A stretch of 11,594 nucleotides of DNA from Bacillota bacterium (GTDB taxonomy: Bacteria; Bacillota; Clostridia; Acetivibrionales; DSM-2933): NCBI GenBank assembly GCA_023441845.1, contig JAEZNF010000129.1:1-11594 (forward strand), read 5' to 3'. This document shows positions 5,243 to 11,594 of this stretch, piece by piece; positions within the stretch are counted from its first letter, which is position 1, and every line of letters starts with the position of its first letter. The notes below the pieces were generated by a model that was not told where the DNA came from, did no database searches, and saw nothing but the letters and a program-made list of their open reading frames with translations. The position numbers and the translations under genes were made by a program.

Positions 5243-5336
5243 AAATACCTATCATCCCTAAAGTACCTGGTAGAATCTTATTCTTTAGCACAAAGTTACA
5301 GCTATAAATATAGATTGGAACAGGGAGCAATAATAT

Positions 5337-5375
5337 AAACCCCATGAACCATTGATGAATTGGTTCATGGGGTTT
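5337..5375 (+). terminator. Intrinsic terminator after metC
   Basis: A perfect 15-bp stem (AAACCCCATGAACCA against TGGTTCATGGGGTTT) encloses a 9-base loop and ends in TTTTATT. The A-rich 5' edge and T-rich 3' edge mean it could work in both directions, stopping metI-metC and any transcription that passes the end of larE. Confidence 0.9.
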
Positions 5376-5404
5376 TATTGGGGAGTTTTTGAGTTAACTG
5401 TATT

Positions 5405-7858: not shown

Positions 7859-9160
7859 TTAAAAGGCTTCTGCAAAAGCCTGCTTCAAGTCGGCAATCAA
7901 ATCATCCGCATCCTCGAGGCCTATTGAAAGTCTTACTGTTTCAGGCGGGATATCAGCTGTTTTGCGTTCATCAAAGTTTAATTCGCCATGAGTTACTCTT
8001 GGCGGATCAATAATCAGTGACCTGGCGTCTCCGATGTTGGCTTGATAACTGAATAGTTTTACGGAGTTTAAAAACTTCTCCAATTCACTTGCTGTTCCTT
8101 TGAATCCAAAGGTAAAGTTTGAACCGGCTCCTTTTGGAAGGTACTTCTTTGCCAAATCCTTATAGGGGCTTTCTTTAGCTGATGGGTGCTCAACCCATGC
8201 AACCTGCTCTGCACTTTCCAGATACTTTATAACTTTTTCCGCATTGGAAACCTGTTTCTGCACTCTTTCGGACAATGTTTCCAACCCCAATAAAACAAGG
8301 TATGCATCAAAAGGACTTAGGGCCGCTCCAAAGTAAGCGAGGTAATGGAACCGCAATTTTGCAATAAATGCTATTTCAGGCAGTGCTTCAAGAAAGCTTC
8401 TTTCTACGCCCTGACTGTCCCGCAAAAAATAGCTTGTTTCGGTAAATTGAGGGAATTTTCCATTGCCCCAGTTGAATTTACCGCTTTCCAAAACGAGGCC
8501 CGCTATAGCATTGCCATGACCGCTGATGGCTTTGGTAGCAGAGTATATCACGATGTCTGCACCAAATTTGATGGGATTTAAAAGATAGGGAGTGGCAAAG
8601 GTATTATCAACAATTAAAGGAATATCATGCTCGTGGGCAACCTTTGCAATAGCTTCGATATCTGCTACTATTGCACCCGGATTGCTTATTGTTTCGATAA
8701 ATATTGCTTTTGTGTCTTCCTTTATAGCTTTTCTATAGGCTTCAGGATCATTTGGGTTTTTAACCTTGTCTATTTTTATACCAAATTTGGGGTAGAGCTT
8801 TCTAAAGCCGTCAATAGTACCGCCGTAGAGCTGTTCTGTAGTCAAAATCCTTCCTCCGCATTCAGCTACATTAAATAACGTCAATGTTATAGCCGCCATA
8901 CCGGATGCTACTGCAAGGGCTGCTGCCGCTCCATCCAAAGCTGCAATTCTTTCTTCCAGAACGGAAACTGTCGGATTACCGAGTCTGGTATAAAAATAAC
9001 CTGCTTCCTGAAAGGTTCTAAGCCTTTCAAATCTTTCAGTACCGCCCAGTTCAAAGGATGCTGTCTGGTAAATCGGAACCTGTACGGAATAATTATGATC
9101 CTTTGGATTGTATCCAGCCCTAACCTTAAGTGTATCGAATCCTAAATTTTGCTCTGACAT
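7859..9160 (-). CDS. metY: Second, divergent O-acetylhomoserine sulfhydrylase-like PLP enzyme
   Basis: The 433-residue protein is collinear with the neighbouring MetY and keeps the PLP lysine (K210), FYTRLGNPT, ASGMAA, VDNTFATPYL and a C-terminal RLSIGLED. It departs at several otherwise constant places: the PLP-lysine block is YSATKAISGHG instead of [11 protein letters not shown], and the HPASTTH segment is replaced by DPPRVTHGEL. These changes lie near the cofactor and active-site entrance, so acceptor or donor specificity may differ (sulfide, methanethiol or a protein-bound sulfur carrier are options; inference). AGGAGG lies eight bases before the ATG. It is transcribed from its own promoter with a leader of about 165 bases containing a hairpin-terminator element. 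Assignment to the MetY family is firm; the exact reaction is not. Confidence 0.85.
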   Translation of the reverse strand: MSEQNLGFDTLKVRAGYNPKDHNYSVQVPIYQTASFELGGTERFERLRTFQEAGYFYTRLGNPTVSVLEERIAALDGAAAALAVASGMAAITLTLFNVAECGGRILTTEQLYGGTIDGFRKLYPKFGIKIDKVKNPNDPEAYRKAIKEDTKAIFIETISNPGAIVADIEAIAKVAHEHDIPLIVDNTFATPYLLNPIKFGADIVIYSATKAISGHGNAIAGLVLESGKFNWGNGKFPQFTETSYFLRDSQGVERSFLEALPEIAFIAKLRFHYLAYFGAALSPFDAYLVLLGLETLSERVQKQVSNAEKVIKYLESAEQVAWVEHPSAKESPYKDLAKKYLPKGAGSNFTFGFKGTASELEKFLNSVKLFSYQANIGDARSLIIDPPRVTHGELNFDERKTADIPPETVRLSIGLEDADDLIADLKQAFAEAF

Positions 9161-9194
9161 AATATTATCCTCCTGTTAAATTTGTTTTTTTAAT

Positions 9195-9255
9195 AAAAAA
9201 AGACCAGTTAAATTTTGTGGTTAACACAAAACACTTAGTCTCCAGTCATCTGGTC
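9195..9255 (-). promoter_or_regulatory. Hairpin-plus-terminator leader element of the second metY
   Basis: On the minus strand the leader reads TTGACCAGATGACTGGAG and then ACTAAG. CCAG and CTGG form a 4-bp hairpin with an ATGA loop (plus-strand 9242-9253). After one A comes a stem in which GACTA pairs with TGGTC (plus-strand 9202-9206), enclosing a 7-bp hairpin TTTTGTG/CACAAAA (9213-9231). Seven U residues follow (9201-9195). Alternatively the upstream GACCAG (9255-9250) can pair fully with CTGGTC (9207-9202) next to the U-run, which would melt the small hairpin. These two states exclude each other, as expected for transcription attenuation. The first 25 bases match the plus-strand element at 9444-9468 with one difference. 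Confidence 0.65.
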
Positions 9256-9331
9256 AACAATACGTATATTAAGTTTTACAGCCATAAATAATGATACTGA
9301 TAAAATATTATTAATCATATCGTTTTAGTAT

Positions 9332-9360
9332 ATTTTATTCTTGTATTTGATTCATGTCAA
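9332..9360 (-). promoter_or_regulatory. Promoter of the second metY
   Basis: On the minus strand TTGACA (9360-9355), 17 bases and TAAAAT (9337-9332) form a near-consensus promoter. Six bases after the -10 comes AAACGATA, exactly as at the metN promoter (AAACGATA at the same distance from TAAAAT). This points to a shared operator or conserved initial transcript. Confidence 0.8.
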
Positions 9361-9374
9361 CATTTTATTTTATA

Positions 9375-9403
9375 TTGACAGTAAAAAAATTAAGTGTTAC
9401 CAT
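9375..9403 (+). promoter_or_regulatory. Promoter of the methyltransferase unit
   Basis: TTGACA (9375-9380), 17 bases and TACCAT (9398-9403). The -10 is only 4/6, but -35 and spacing are ideal. It diverges from the second metY promoter with the two -35 boxes 14 bases apart. TAAACAAAGCGGATTATC (9414-9431), in the early transcript, is a weaker version of the motif at the other start sites. The resulting leader is about 217 bases long. Confidence 0.65.
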
Positions 9404-9448
9404 ATGAAGCAATTAAACAAAGCGGATTATCCGGCTATGATTAGTTGA

Positions 9449-9512
9449 CCAGAAGACTGGAGACTAAGCTGCAGGCACTTTTTAGGTGCTTCGGCTTAGT
9501 CTTTTGTTTTTT
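9449..9512 (+). terminator. Leader element 1 of the methyltransferase unit: hairpin plus terminator
   Basis: CCAG/CTGG (9449-9460, loop AAGA) is followed by one A and an 8-bp stem GACTAAGC/GCTTAGTC (9462-9469 and 9494-9501), with an inner GCAC/GTGC stem. TTTTGTTTTTT follows directly. This is a convincing intrinsic terminator about 115 bases before the start codon, so transcription must be conditionally allowed past it. The sequence GTTGACCAGA...GACTGGAGAC repeats that of the divergent metY leader. Confidence 0.8.
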
Positions 9513-9551
9513 GGCAAATAAATTTGATGTATAAAAATATAAAAGCACTAA

Positions 9552-9595
9552 CCAGTAAACTGGAGGTCGTATTCTATTCTTTGAATATGGCCTTT
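9552..9595 (+). promoter_or_regulatory. Leader element 2 of the methyltransferase unit
   Basis: A second copy of the same architecture lies 90 bases downstream. CCAG/CTGG (9552-9563, loop TAAA) is followed by one A, then a 10-bp stem with two G-U pairs, GGTCGTATTC/GAATATGGCC (9565-9574 and 9583-9592). Only TTT follows, so termination would be weak. It could be a second attenuator or a translational control structure; GGGGGA and the ATG begin some 20 bases later. Confidence 0.55.
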
Positions 9596-9626
9596 AAATA
9601 TTCCAGAACAAAGTGGGGGATTTTAT

Positions 9627-10703
9627 ATGGGGATCTATGAAAATCAGGATCAAATGACACCAAAGGAAAGATTGACGGCAATTAGGGAAGGTAAGCAGGT
9701 TGACAGGCTTTCCTTAAATGCATTTATTGGTGAACATGCCGCTTGGATTCAAGGATTAAGCGTATCGGAATATCATCATTCTCCTGAAAAGATGGCGAAA
9801 GCCCAGATTGATGCTTATAGAAAATATGGCACTGATGGGATAAGCGTTGGAGTCGGCCTTACAGGTATAGCTGAGGCATTGGGGAGCAGGATTGGCTACC
9901 CCGACGACAATACGCCATATGTGGCCGAGCATGTTTTAAAGGACATTAAGGAGGTTGATAAATTAAAGCTGACCGATAATAAAAAAGACGGGAGATTGCA
10001 AATAATAATTGATACCGTTAAAATTTTGCTGGATGAAGTCGGTGATGAGGTTCCGGTTACTGCAGGAGTCATAGGGGCTTTTAGTAATGCAGCCAATACA
10101 AGAGGAACAGAAAGCTTTTTAAGAGATATCATGTATGATCCTGAAAATGCCCATAAGCTTTTGAGGCATGTAAACAAATGTACAATTGAGTTTGTGAAAG
10201 AGGTTTCGAAGCTCGGTGTCAGTATAAGCATTGGTGATCCCACAGCTTCCGGAAGCCTTATAAGTCCAAAGCAGTTTAGAGAGTTTGCATATCCGTATAT
10301 AAAGGAATTATCGGATGCAATAAAGGAGCATGGTGCACCGGCACCGCAGCTGCACATTTGCGGCAACAGCAAAAAGATATGGGGGCAAATGGCTGATACG
10401 GGTGTGGGAGGACTAAGCCTTGACGACGTCATTGATCTTGAAGAAGCAAAAAAGGAAGTTGGTGACAGGATTACACTGATTGGAAATGTAAGTCCTACCA
10501 GGACCATGTATCTTGGAACTCCTTCCGATGTGGTTGAAAATGTAAAGGATAATTTAAGAAAAGCATATGATACTAAAAAGGGATATGTCATATCATTAGG
10601 CTGTGGTTTACCTATACGGACAAAGCCGGAAAATGTCCATGCTTTTGTTGATGCCGCAAAAAAATACGGAAGGTATCCCTTAAAATTGGAAAATTTTATT
10701 TAA
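9627..10703 (+). CDS. UroD-fold (MtaA/CmuA-type) corrinoid-dependent methyltransferase
   Basis: The 358-residue protein is in the uroporphyrinogen decarboxylase superfamily but in its methyltransferase branch. It has the zinc-ligand set LHICGN (H243, C245) and SLGCGLP (C326), matching the His-x-Cys...Cys site of MtaA-type methylcobamide:thiol methyltransferases. True UroD lacks these cysteines, and haem genes are absent. Family members move a methyl group from a methylcorrinoid protein to a zinc-activated thiol such as coenzyme M. In this organism the acceptor would have to be another thiol; homocysteine is an obvious candidate given the neighbours (inference). No corrinoid protein is in the window. 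GGGGGA lies six bases before the ATG. A leader with two hairpin-terminator elements precedes it, and the GNAT gene follows after 12 bases in the same transcript. Confidence 0.8.
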   Translation: MGIYENQDQMTPKERLTAIREGKQVDRLSLNAFIGEHAAWIQGLSVSEYHHSPEKMAKAQIDAYRKYGTDGISVGVGLTGIAEALGSRIGYPDDNTPYVAEHVLKDIKEVDKLKLTDNKKDGRLQIIIDTVKILLDEVGDEVPVTAGVIGAFSNAANTRGTESFLRDIMYDPENAHKLLRHVNKCTIEFVKEVSKLGVSISIGDPTASGSLISPKQFREFAYPYIKELSDAIKEHGAPAPQLHICGNSKKIWGQMADTGVGGLSLDDVIDLEEAKKEVGDRITLIGNVSPTRTMYLGTPSDVVENVKDNLRKAYDTKKGYVISLGCGLPIRTKPENVHAFVDAAKKYGRYPLKLENFI

Positions 10704-10715
10704 GAGGTGTATTAG

Positions 10716-11219
10716 TTGAGTAACATATCATTTATCCGTGTTAAGGATGAACATGTAAAAAAAATAACCGAGATTTATAATTACTACGTAAAAAACACTA
10801 CTGTCACATACCATTATTTTGAGCATACTGAAGAACAAATGAAGGAAATACTTTATTCAAATGATCAAAGGTTCAATTCCTTTGCAGTTATAGATGGCGA
10901 TGCAGGTGAAGTTATCGGTTACTGCCTGATATGCAGGTTCAAAAACAGGGAAGCATTTGACAGATGCGGAGAAGCTGTTATATATCTTGACAATAAATAT
11001 TCAGGCAGGGGAATTGGAAAGCAGGCGTTGGATTTTTTGGAGGAGGAAGCCGGAAAGCAAAATTTTCATACCCTTGTAGTGTCAATTTCAAGTGACAATG
11101 AGCACAGCATCAAGCTATTCGAAAAGAACGGATATTTTCTGTGTGCCCGTTTTAAGGAAGTTGGAATTAAATTCGGCAAAGTTCTGGATCTTTTATATTA
11201 TGAAAAGATTTTAGAATAA
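10716..11219 (+). CDS. GNAT acetyltransferase, phosphinothricin/methionine-derivative type
   Basis: This 167-residue protein has the GNAT fold. The N-terminal IYNYYVKNTTVTY motif is typical of phosphinothricin acetyltransferase-like enzymes, and the acetyl-CoA pyrophosphate loop is SGRGIG (about residues 95-100) after EAVIYLDNKY. SSDNEHSIKLFEKNGY is the usual motif B region. Relatives in this subfamily acetylate the amino group of methionine sulfoximine and methionine sulfone (MddA-type); the location between a methyltransferase and metN makes such a methionine-related substrate attractive, but this is inference. Translation starts at a TTG, chosen because AAGAGGTG (10702-10709) lies six bases upstream. 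It is the second gene of the methyltransferase unit. No terminator follows before the metN promoter. Confidence 0.8.
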   Translation: MSNISFIRVKDEHVKKITEIYNYYVKNTTVTYHYFEHTEEQMKEILYSNDQRFNSFAVIDGDAGEVIGYCLICRFKNREAFDRCGEAVIYLDNKYSGRGIGKQALDFLEEEAGKQNFHTLVVSISSDNEHSIKLFEKNGYFLCARFKEVGIKFGKVLDLLYYEKILE

Positions 11220-11231
11220 TCTAAAAAATCA

Positions 11232-11260
11232 TTGACAATGGGATAAATATGCAGTAAAAT
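11232..11260 (+). promoter_or_regulatory. metN promoter
   Basis: TTGACA (11232-11237), 17 bases and TAAAAT (11255-11260) form an almost perfect promoter 13 bases after the GNAT stop. AAAACGATAGGAATTAT (11266-11282) covers the likely start of transcription. Its TAGGAATTA matches the right half of the CymR consensus as I remember it and shares AAACGATA with the second metY promoter. Confidence 0.8.
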
Positions 11261-11306
11261 TGATAAAAACGATAGGAATTATAAGAAATAGACATATAGA
11301 CGCTGA

Positions 11307-11371
11307 CCTGAGCTACAGGAGGCTGGATGAATGGTATAATCTTTGGATTATGAACATTTCCAGCTTTTTTT
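11307..11371 (+). terminator. Hairpin-plus-terminator leader element of metN
   Basis: CCTG/CAGG (11307-11319, loop AGCTA) is followed by one A and a long interrupted stem. GCTGGA (11322-11327) pairs with TCCAGC (11359-11364), AATG with CATT, and ATAAT with ATTAT around a CTTTGG loop. Seven T residues follow. The preceding TGACC and following GGAG match the elements at 9242-9255 and 9449-9462 although the stem bases have changed together (CCAG/CTGG to CCTG/CAGG). It lies about 26 bases before the metN start, so it must be bypassed for expression. Confidence 0.8.
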
Positions 11372-11397
11372 ATTTAAAAAAGTTGTGAGGAATTATT

Positions 11398-11594
11398 ATG
11401 ATTGAAATTAAAAATTTAAGTAAAACATTTATAACTTCAAATTCAAAAATAAAGGCTCTGGATAACATAAACCTCAAAATCGAGAAAGGGGATATTTTCG
11501 GTATCATTGGATTTAGCGGAGCCGGTAAATCAACTCTTATAAGATGCTTAAACCGGTTGGAAGAGCCTGATTCGGGAAGGATACTTGTAGAAGG
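11398..11594 (+). CDS. metN: Methionine ABC transporter ATP-binding protein, 5' part
   Basis: The first 65 codons are visible and the gene runs off the window. [52 protein letters not shown] is the characteristic MetN N-terminus: the Walker A motif is GFSGAGKST, and GDIFGIIG followed by RCxNRLE is typical of D-/L-methionine importers rather than of other amino-acid ATPases. MetN powers uptake through MetI-type permease and the MetQ binding lipoprotein, which are expected downstream outside the window. GTGAGG ends seven bases before the ATG. The gene has its own promoter and a terminator-containing leader. No S-box riboswitch is recognisable in the leader, although metNIQ operons in Firmicutes often have one. 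Confidence 0.88.

Follow-up and report, generated by a model that had tools for sequence, protein, structure and literature searches.

A hairpin antiterminator in sulfur-gene leaders and its probable partner, the small DUF2292 protein YezD

Introduction

Three leaders within an 11,594-nt stretch of DNA from a Bacillota bacterium (contig JAEZNF010000129.1 of assembly GCA_023441845.1, hereafter the window) contain four copies of a compact RNA hairpin, and they raise the question of what this element does and what reads it. The leaders precede metY2, an MtaA/CmuA-like methyltransferase gene, and metN. An earlier note on this DNA, made from the sequence alone, reported the four copies and proposed an attenuator of methionine and homocysteine genes that senses a ligand or a protein. 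Here, we followed up that note computationally. Its observation is confirmed, and its interpretation is partly supported. The element proves to be a genuine antiterminator, widespread and without a matching model in Rfam 15. Quite probably it is a protein-dependent transcription antiterminator whose factor is YezD, a small protein of the DUF2292 family.

Results

The element is a single hairpin of ~24 nt with few constant bases, NNYU-GA-CYNN-(A-rich loop)-NNRG-A-GRNN. It had been described as a 4-bp hairpin, one unpaired A, and a second stem. The hairpin is in fact longer, with 7 or 8 of 8 possible pairs in the window copies: the four nucleotides just before the GA form a lower helix with the first four of that "second stem," and the A faces the GA across an internal loop (GA/A). 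RNAalifold found the lower helix in 13 sequences selected without reference to it; alignment columns 7 and 26 hold UA in seven, CG in five, and UG in one, with none broken. A covariance model of the hairpin (R1) was built from 19 examples, the four window copies included, over which 94.7% of cells are paired. Over 144 distinct model matches, 96.8% of cells are paired versus 81.5% after shuffling, and changes on both sides of a pair number 245 versus 80.8, in an alignment that was fitted to the model and so leans towards it. They are the distinct ones among the best 150 of 166 matches in 100 of the 109 loci whose strict instances bear a terminator. The strong covariation in both helices upholds the earlier view of an RNA structure, not a DNA site. 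The loops had been called unconserved; they are A-rich, with 4–5 nt in 135 of 143 instances.

A terminator's 5′ arm opens with the very nucleotides that make up the lower helix's 3′ strand. Both are parts of the "second stem," so the full hairpin and the terminator cannot form together, a mutual exclusion that can be read from the sequence in copies 1, 2, and 4 of the window. The upper helix (P1) alone is compatible with that stem, and copy 3 is predicted to fold in this way, so the original picture survives for that copy. A terminator stem that uses the shared nucleotides, counted if it had 7 or more net pairs and a T-rich tail, accompanies 143 of 235 strict instances versus 17 of 235 after the downstream DNA was shuffled, where the 235 are the distinct pattern matches in the loci fetched to that point, chance matches included. 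Terminator stems often start up to 3 nt further 5′, within the hairpin. This overlap bears out the proposed attenuator logic.

All four copies are present in the leaders where they had been reported. Copy 1 (TGTTGACCAGATGACTGGAGACT; minus strand, 9237..9259; R1 score 35.6 bits) lies in the metY2 leader, and its competing terminator (minus strand, 9195..9240) has a 5′ arm that opens with the hairpin's last four nucleotides (9240–9237), a 3′ arm that ends at 9202, and a U tract at 9201–9195. The methyltransferase leader contains a tandem pair on the plus strand. Copy 2 (AGTTGACCAGAAGACTGGAGACT; 9443..9465; 34.3 bits) competes with a terminator at 9462..9514, whose 5′ arm opens with the shared GACT (9462–9465), whose 3′ arm ends at 9503, and whose U tract spans 9504–9514. 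Copy 3 (CACTAACCAGTAAACTGGAGGTC; 9546..9568; 29.6 bits), the second of the pair, has AA in place of the internal-loop GA, and its competing stem (GGTCGTATTC...GAATATGGCC; plus strand, 9565..9592) is long and has no real U tract, with only TTTAAAT behind it. Copy 4 (CGCTGACCTGAGCTACAGGAGGCT; plus strand, 11301..11324; 29.5 bits) lies in the metN leader and shares GGCT (11321–11324) with a plus-strand terminator at 11321..11371, whose 3′ arm (TCCAGC) ends at 11364 and is followed by a U tract at 11365–11371. Three copies are thus followed by U tracts, as the note had said, and the compensatory P1 change in the metN copy, CCTG/CAGG, is there as well. The TGACCWG core given in the note is unchanged in three of the copies, and copy 3 has TAACCAG instead.

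Folded unaided as 95-nt leaders, copy 1 is predicted to adopt a form with a terminator-like stem, copy 2 the terminator form, and copy 3 P1 plus the second stem. Predicted energies are −4.9 to −8.6 kcal/mol for the isolated window hairpins and −13.0 to −27.4 kcal/mol for the 3′ segments (terminator plus the rest within the 95 nt). Since these unaided leaders fold otherwise, the full hairpin in copies 1–3 should need help; copy 4 is less clear. An Rfam scan showed no model overlapping any of the four copies at E ≤ 1, and at the gathering score in 8, 20, and 15 further sources, known leaders were present with none at an element, in line with the note's statement that no known leader class fits.

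We looked for the element in metY loci (the best 80 of 517, fetched with an alignment of close metY2 homologues) using patterns that require P1 complementarity and the flanking GA/GAG but not the lower helix. Leaders that contain it precede metY and other genes in Clostridia, heliobacteria, Cohnella/Paenibacillus, and Geobacter relatives; the forms of P1 are CCAG/CTGG, CTAG/CTAG, CTTG/CAAG, CTGG/CCAG, CCGG/CCGG, and CCGT/ACGG, the CTNN variants having been chosen by eye from leaders. Among 13 metY leaders inspected by eye, six (L007, L009, L010, L021, L024, and L068) had no element. A Geobacter genome paper reports many conserved sequences, among them SAM riboswitches before metC/metX and a repeat element (PMC2700814); a description of the hairpin does not appear in the part of that paper accessible to us, which excludes its additional files. 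With a limit of E ≤ 2, R1 matched each of 11 genomes from the loci 2 to 26 times. Three genome samples were also searched: a class-wide sample (243 genomes), a phylum sample (199), and a sample of the class of a Desulfuromonadales genome (98). In all three, which come from two phyla, the element recurs with E near 1e-7 per genome. In the phylum sample, 25 of the 199 genomes have the element at E ≤ 1e-3, with ~0.2 expected if the rough E-values hold. A covariance-model search of the kind that the note had suggested thus finds the element again upstream of sulfur genes, and none of the outcomes named there as refuting (an Rfam match, lack of covariation, lack of recurrence) was seen.

Downstream genes, named by recognition of translated N-termini without profiles, include metY, metN, metQ, and metK for methionine and SAM, and cysK, sulfate adenylyltransferase, APS kinase and reductase-like, sulfite reductase-like, and sulfate/sulfonate transporter genes for sulfur. 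Others encode corrinoid proteins, methyltransferases, NifB/NifX-type proteins, and nitrogenase-like NifH/NifD-type proteins. The NifB/NifX-type and nitrogenase-like targets recall methylthio-alkane reductase, which makes methanethiol (PMC12552129). The methionine/homocysteine theme of the note therefore stands in part: the regulon is sulfur/SAM metabolism at large, and the element also occurs with phage late genes and B12-linked surface proteins. Tandem copies are frequent. A Clostridium tyrobutyricum locus (L114, 1431–3007, minus strand) packs six copies into 1.6 kb.

In a second C. tyrobutyricum locus (L055) and others, a small DUF2292/YezD (PF10055) frame ends directly before the element. 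Every one of 16 genomes whose loci have the element or an R1 match contains PF10055 above the curated cut-off, compared with 1 of 14 control genomes (B. subtilis). PF10055 and the element (E ≤ 1e-3) occur in 21 and 21 genomes of the class-wide sample, 14 having both (Fisher P 6e-13); in 35 and 25 of the phylum sample, 23 having both (P 3e-19); and in 26 and 22 of the Desulfuromonadales class sample, 21 having both (P 1e-15). These P values ignore kinship between genomes and rest on rough E-values; furthermore, the centre genomes and two others (G006 and G008) were known beforehand to carry the element, the class-wide and phylum samples overlap in at least G039 and G043, and search filters are stricter above 40 genomes.

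Gene order points the same way. The nearest element lies within 250 nt downstream on the same strand for 43 of 116 PF10055 matches (9 of 25, 15 of 53, and 19 of 38 in the three samples), starting 2–223 nt past the end of the match; within the same distance, 3 have an element upstream and 0 on the opposite strand. This count covers R1 matches in PF10055 genomes only, with E-value limits of 0.05 for the first sample and 0.02 for the other two, and G043 enters it twice. A DNA scan of 41 phylum-sample entries, with tandem domains merged and five matches of G006, G010:C1, G039, and G043 left out, found the element within 150 nt downstream in 14 and within 500 nt upstream in 2. Two relatives of the window's organism (G001 and G005) carry yezD, and we infer that this organism does too.

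The pair recurs outside sulfur metabolism. In prophages of genomes G183 and G124, a YezD-like gene is followed by the element and a terminator and then, as judged by eye, by late-type genes. A query with a phage YezD turned up seven viral stretches. In all five whose gene is intact, the element and a terminator follow 166–943 nt further on. The other two hold a fused or truncated copy without the element and a 35% match inside a longer frame. A DNA pattern matched 68 viral stretches, 18 with a terminator. Ten of these 18 have a YezD-like gene by hidden Markov model (HMM), five of them being the contigs of the phage YezD query; L216 has a marginal one (E 0.09, convincing by eye), three have less than 450 nt upstream, and four have no YezD-like gene. 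Among the 50 terminator-free stretches, none has a YezD-like gene at E < 1e-3. A nearly identical element (GCTGACCGGAAAACCGGAGGCA core) is present in prophages of three Clostridia genomes (L159, L163, L167, and L188). The genome behind L167 and L188, G018, has no PF10055 match at E ≤ 0.001.

A shorter cellular YezD-like type was found in ten loci, all ten with a cobalamin riboswitch upstream; the riboswitch is ~0.6 kb before the gene in L185, and a cobalamin adenosyltransferase-like gene lies between in L187. The element follows the gene in 7 of the 10, weakly (15 bits) in L334 and 3.4 kb away in L187. Eight loci (L183–L187, L190, L192, and L193) adjoin large surface or secreted proteins, a count that leaves out the neighbours of L333 and L334. 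The surface protein of L184 has what we take to be a DUF4430-like look, a hint that B12 may be captured there on the cell surface. When 481 proteins of 38 loci were clustered, YezD (in 32 of the 38 with the ORF caller used) was the only cluster to span the sulfur, surface, and phage contexts. YezD sequences were joined by HMM and other proteins by blastp only, and the loci were mostly chosen via YezD or the element; the result therefore says no more than that a second such family did not emerge.

A metabolite-sensing leader precedes yezD itself in some loci. The order is S-box, yezD, element in L055 and L304, and T-box, element, yezD, element in L088. Among 26 other cellular yezD sources, one locus being present twice and some having little upstream DNA, an S-box or T-box precedes three and a TwoAYGGAY RNA a fourth. 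This last RNA (L200, 3676–3832; RF01731, barely over the cut-off) lies ~0.26 kb before the PF10055 match, with the element after that yezD. A relay from riboswitch to YezD is thus supported for some genomes and unproven as a rule. In L112 (11940–12151, minus strand), a single leader holds an S-box and the element one after the other, ahead of a gene that by eye is alcohol-dehydrogenase-like, and two attenuators may be combined there.

YezD is an uncharacterised protein of ~55 amino acids with PF10055 as its domain. AlphaFold2 predicts an alpha-beta-beta unit (pLDDT 80), and two such units for a natural tandem fusion from Heliophilum (pLDDT 73). Tandem fusions of ~120 amino acids are encoded at L019 (1562–1939, minus strand) and in G009:C73, which suggests that YezD works as a dimer. 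Conservation is highest at Q-D-G in the beta turn and, towards the end, at E, E-K, and L. In precomputed Pfam annotation, the YezD homologues listed have PF10055 as their sole domain and no CAT RNA-binding domain. In B. subtilis, yezD carries the label "Unknown," is upregulated under deep starvation, and is not needed to survive it (PMC6385201); a genome note on that species also mentions it (PMC7953295). The genes downregulated in Pseudomonas fragi biofilms include a DUF2292 gene (PMC7921472).

The window itself is a sulfur island with cysK, a nudix gene, a CymR-like Rrf2 regulator gene, larE, two metY genes, and the start of metN; it also contains two cystathionine lyase/synthase-type genes, the MtaA/CmuA-like methyltransferase gene, and a GNAT gene. 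Copy 1 precedes metY2 (7859..9160, minus strand; O-acetylhomoserine sulfhydrylase-like), copies 2 and 3 the methyltransferase gene (9627..10703, plus strand), and copy 4 the start of metN (11398..11594, plus strand), a 65-aa open frame cut by the window end that we recognised from sequence, without a profile, as a methionine ABC transporter ATPase. Sigma-70-like sites in 9160–11400 number 16 versus 8.7 expected from shuffling, and the top three lie 5′ of the three leaders on the correct strands: metY2 (9332..9360, minus strand, 11/12 matches), methyltransferase (9375..9403, plus strand, 10/12 matches, with TG before the −10), and metN (11232..11260, plus strand, 11/12 matches). A palindromic hairpin at 5330–5380, which weakly matches a plastid 3′UTR family once per strand, is probably a bidirectional terminator.

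Discussion

We propose that the nascent leader could fold either into an intrinsic terminator (OFF) or into the small GA/A-loop hairpin (ON), the two being mutually exclusive. A YezD/DUF2292 protein, encoded elsewhere and often just upstream of one element, would bind and stabilise the hairpin, and polymerase would then read through into sulfur-scavenging operons. In genomes whose yezD follows a SAM or T-box leader, or for paralogues a cobalamin leader, the protein would carry the metabolite signal in trans to many operons, and phages would use the same pair ahead of their late genes. From co-occurrence, gene order, and reuse in three contexts, we infer that YezD binds the hairpin and that binding raises expression. 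The earlier note had left ligand and protein sensing side by side; its remark that the element may bind a protein fits these data, and the likeliest sensor is this trans-acting small protein, not a ligand bound by the leader. We also lean towards the broader view that DUF2292/YezD is an unrecognised family of RNA-binding antiterminators with its own RNA site, a portable switch that relays SAM, cobalamin, and aminoacyl-tRNA readings in trans, nitrogenase-like sulfur-scavenging operons included, and that serves phage late genes. If so, a widespread domain gains a function, and a missing regulator of sulfur scavenging in many anaerobes, nitrogenase-like operons included, gains a name. Furthermore, a 55-residue protein would turn a cis-acting riboswitch signal into a trans-acting one, and the phage pair would be a very compact late-gene switch.

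Several results weigh against YezD as the factor. A structure comparison of YezD returned no meaningful relative and no recognisable RNA-binding fold. The unaided metN leader (copy 4) already prefers the hairpin form. Ten element-positive genomes have no PF10055 match (7, 2, and 1 per sample): G018, G083, G091, G122, G134, G151, and G230 in the class-wide sample, G332 and G384 in the phylum sample, and G456 in the Desulfuromonadales class sample. Some of these matches look like chance; by eye no terminator is seen at L168, L172, and others among the class-wide exceptions, nor at L292 of G384; the elements of G018, G091, G230, and G332 look real. Conversely, 7, 12, and 5 PF10055 genomes in the three samples have no element at E ≤ 1e-3, and L190, L192, and L193 have the riboswitch and YezD-like gene with no element by the strict pattern. 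Finally, an S-box or T-box precedes only 3 of the 26 other cellular yezD sources, so that such leaders account for sulfur sensing by YezD in few cases.

Some of these points would suit another factor, such as NusA, a NusG paralogue, a ribosomal protein, or another RNA-binding protein, that reads the hairpin while YezD modulates it or is simply co-inherited. The missing RNA-binding fold would then be no surprise, and neither would terminator-bearing elements without a detectable YezD gene (in G091, G332, the G018 prophage, and viral L219, L257, and L268). We consider this unlikely, as YezD is the one cluster common to the three contexts, within loci mostly chosen via YezD or the element, and diverged YezD-like genes that a simple pattern missed adjoin the element in L216, L232, and L265. 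The hairpin could instead be a tiny aptamer for a sulfur metabolite (e.g., O-acetylserine, SAM, or homocysteine), with yezD a mere member of the regulon. Sulfur genes make up most of the targets read, an element precedes yezD itself in some cases (L088 and G190), and terminator-linked ligand riboswitches are common in these bacteria. However, the element accompanies its own YezD-like gene in phage late regions and in cobalamin-riboswitch surface loci with no sulfur link, its ~24 nt and few constant bases leave little for an aptamer, and the L112 leader already has an S-box in series with it; this explanation seems to us distinctly improbable.

The repeats might also be DNA operators of a sulfur repressor such as the CymR/Rrf2 homologue encoded at 2334–2783, which scores under the NCBIfam CymR cut-off. 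The core is a short inverted repeat, as an operator would be, but both helices vary in a compensatory way, the constant GA/A bases are non-palindromic, and the elements lie downstream of promoter-like sites with terminators adjoining, so that we give an operator very little credence. Chance likeness among the ordinary terminators of one genome is scarcely credible: the element is short and many viral pattern matches are chance (50 of 68 lack a terminator), yet covariation and gene-class enrichment argue otherwise, and the recurrence in three samples and two phyla refutes it. An antiterminator read by YezD remains our preferred account.

Its likeness to known systems is one of mechanism. ANTAR RNAs have two hairpins with conserved six-base loops. 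The element does not belong there, being a single hairpin with 4–5-nt loops in nearly all instances. The ANTAR antiterminators EutV and NasR do offer the precedent of a protein-stabilised antiterminator that excludes a terminator (PMC3369931, PMC8934654). Their RNAs are unlike a hairpin with an A-rich 4–5-nt loop and an internal loop, and the candidate protein here is PF10055. S-box, T-box, and cobalamin leaders (RF00162, RF00230, and RF00174) also choose between terminator and antiterminator, control similar target genes, and stand upstream of some yezD genes. The element differs from them in its small size, in matching no Rfam model, and in its apparent need for a protein that acts in trans. 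Phage lambda N/boxB and Q pair a small phage protein with a nucleic-acid site before late genes, much as the phage YezD pair places a phage-encoded small protein and a site ahead of late genes; in the YezD pair, however, the hairpin competes with one local terminator, and the proteins are unrelated.

The closest parallel is the ribonucleic antiterminator (RAT) of BglG, LicT, and SacT. There too, a small hairpin whose internal loop is asymmetric shares sequence with the 5′ arm of an intrinsic terminator, and the protein gene, like yezD, is often just upstream of the controlled operon. The RNA sequence and loop arrangement differ, as the RAT consensus has two internal loops, while the alignments of the element show one GA/A internal loop and so place it outside that consensus. 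BglG-type proteins combine a CAT RNA-binding domain with PTS domains and control sugar genes, whereas the candidate YezD is a single DUF2292 domain found with sulfur, B12, and phage genes. The mechanism is therefore of the BglG/LicT-RAT kind, and neither the RNA nor the candidate protein is in that family.

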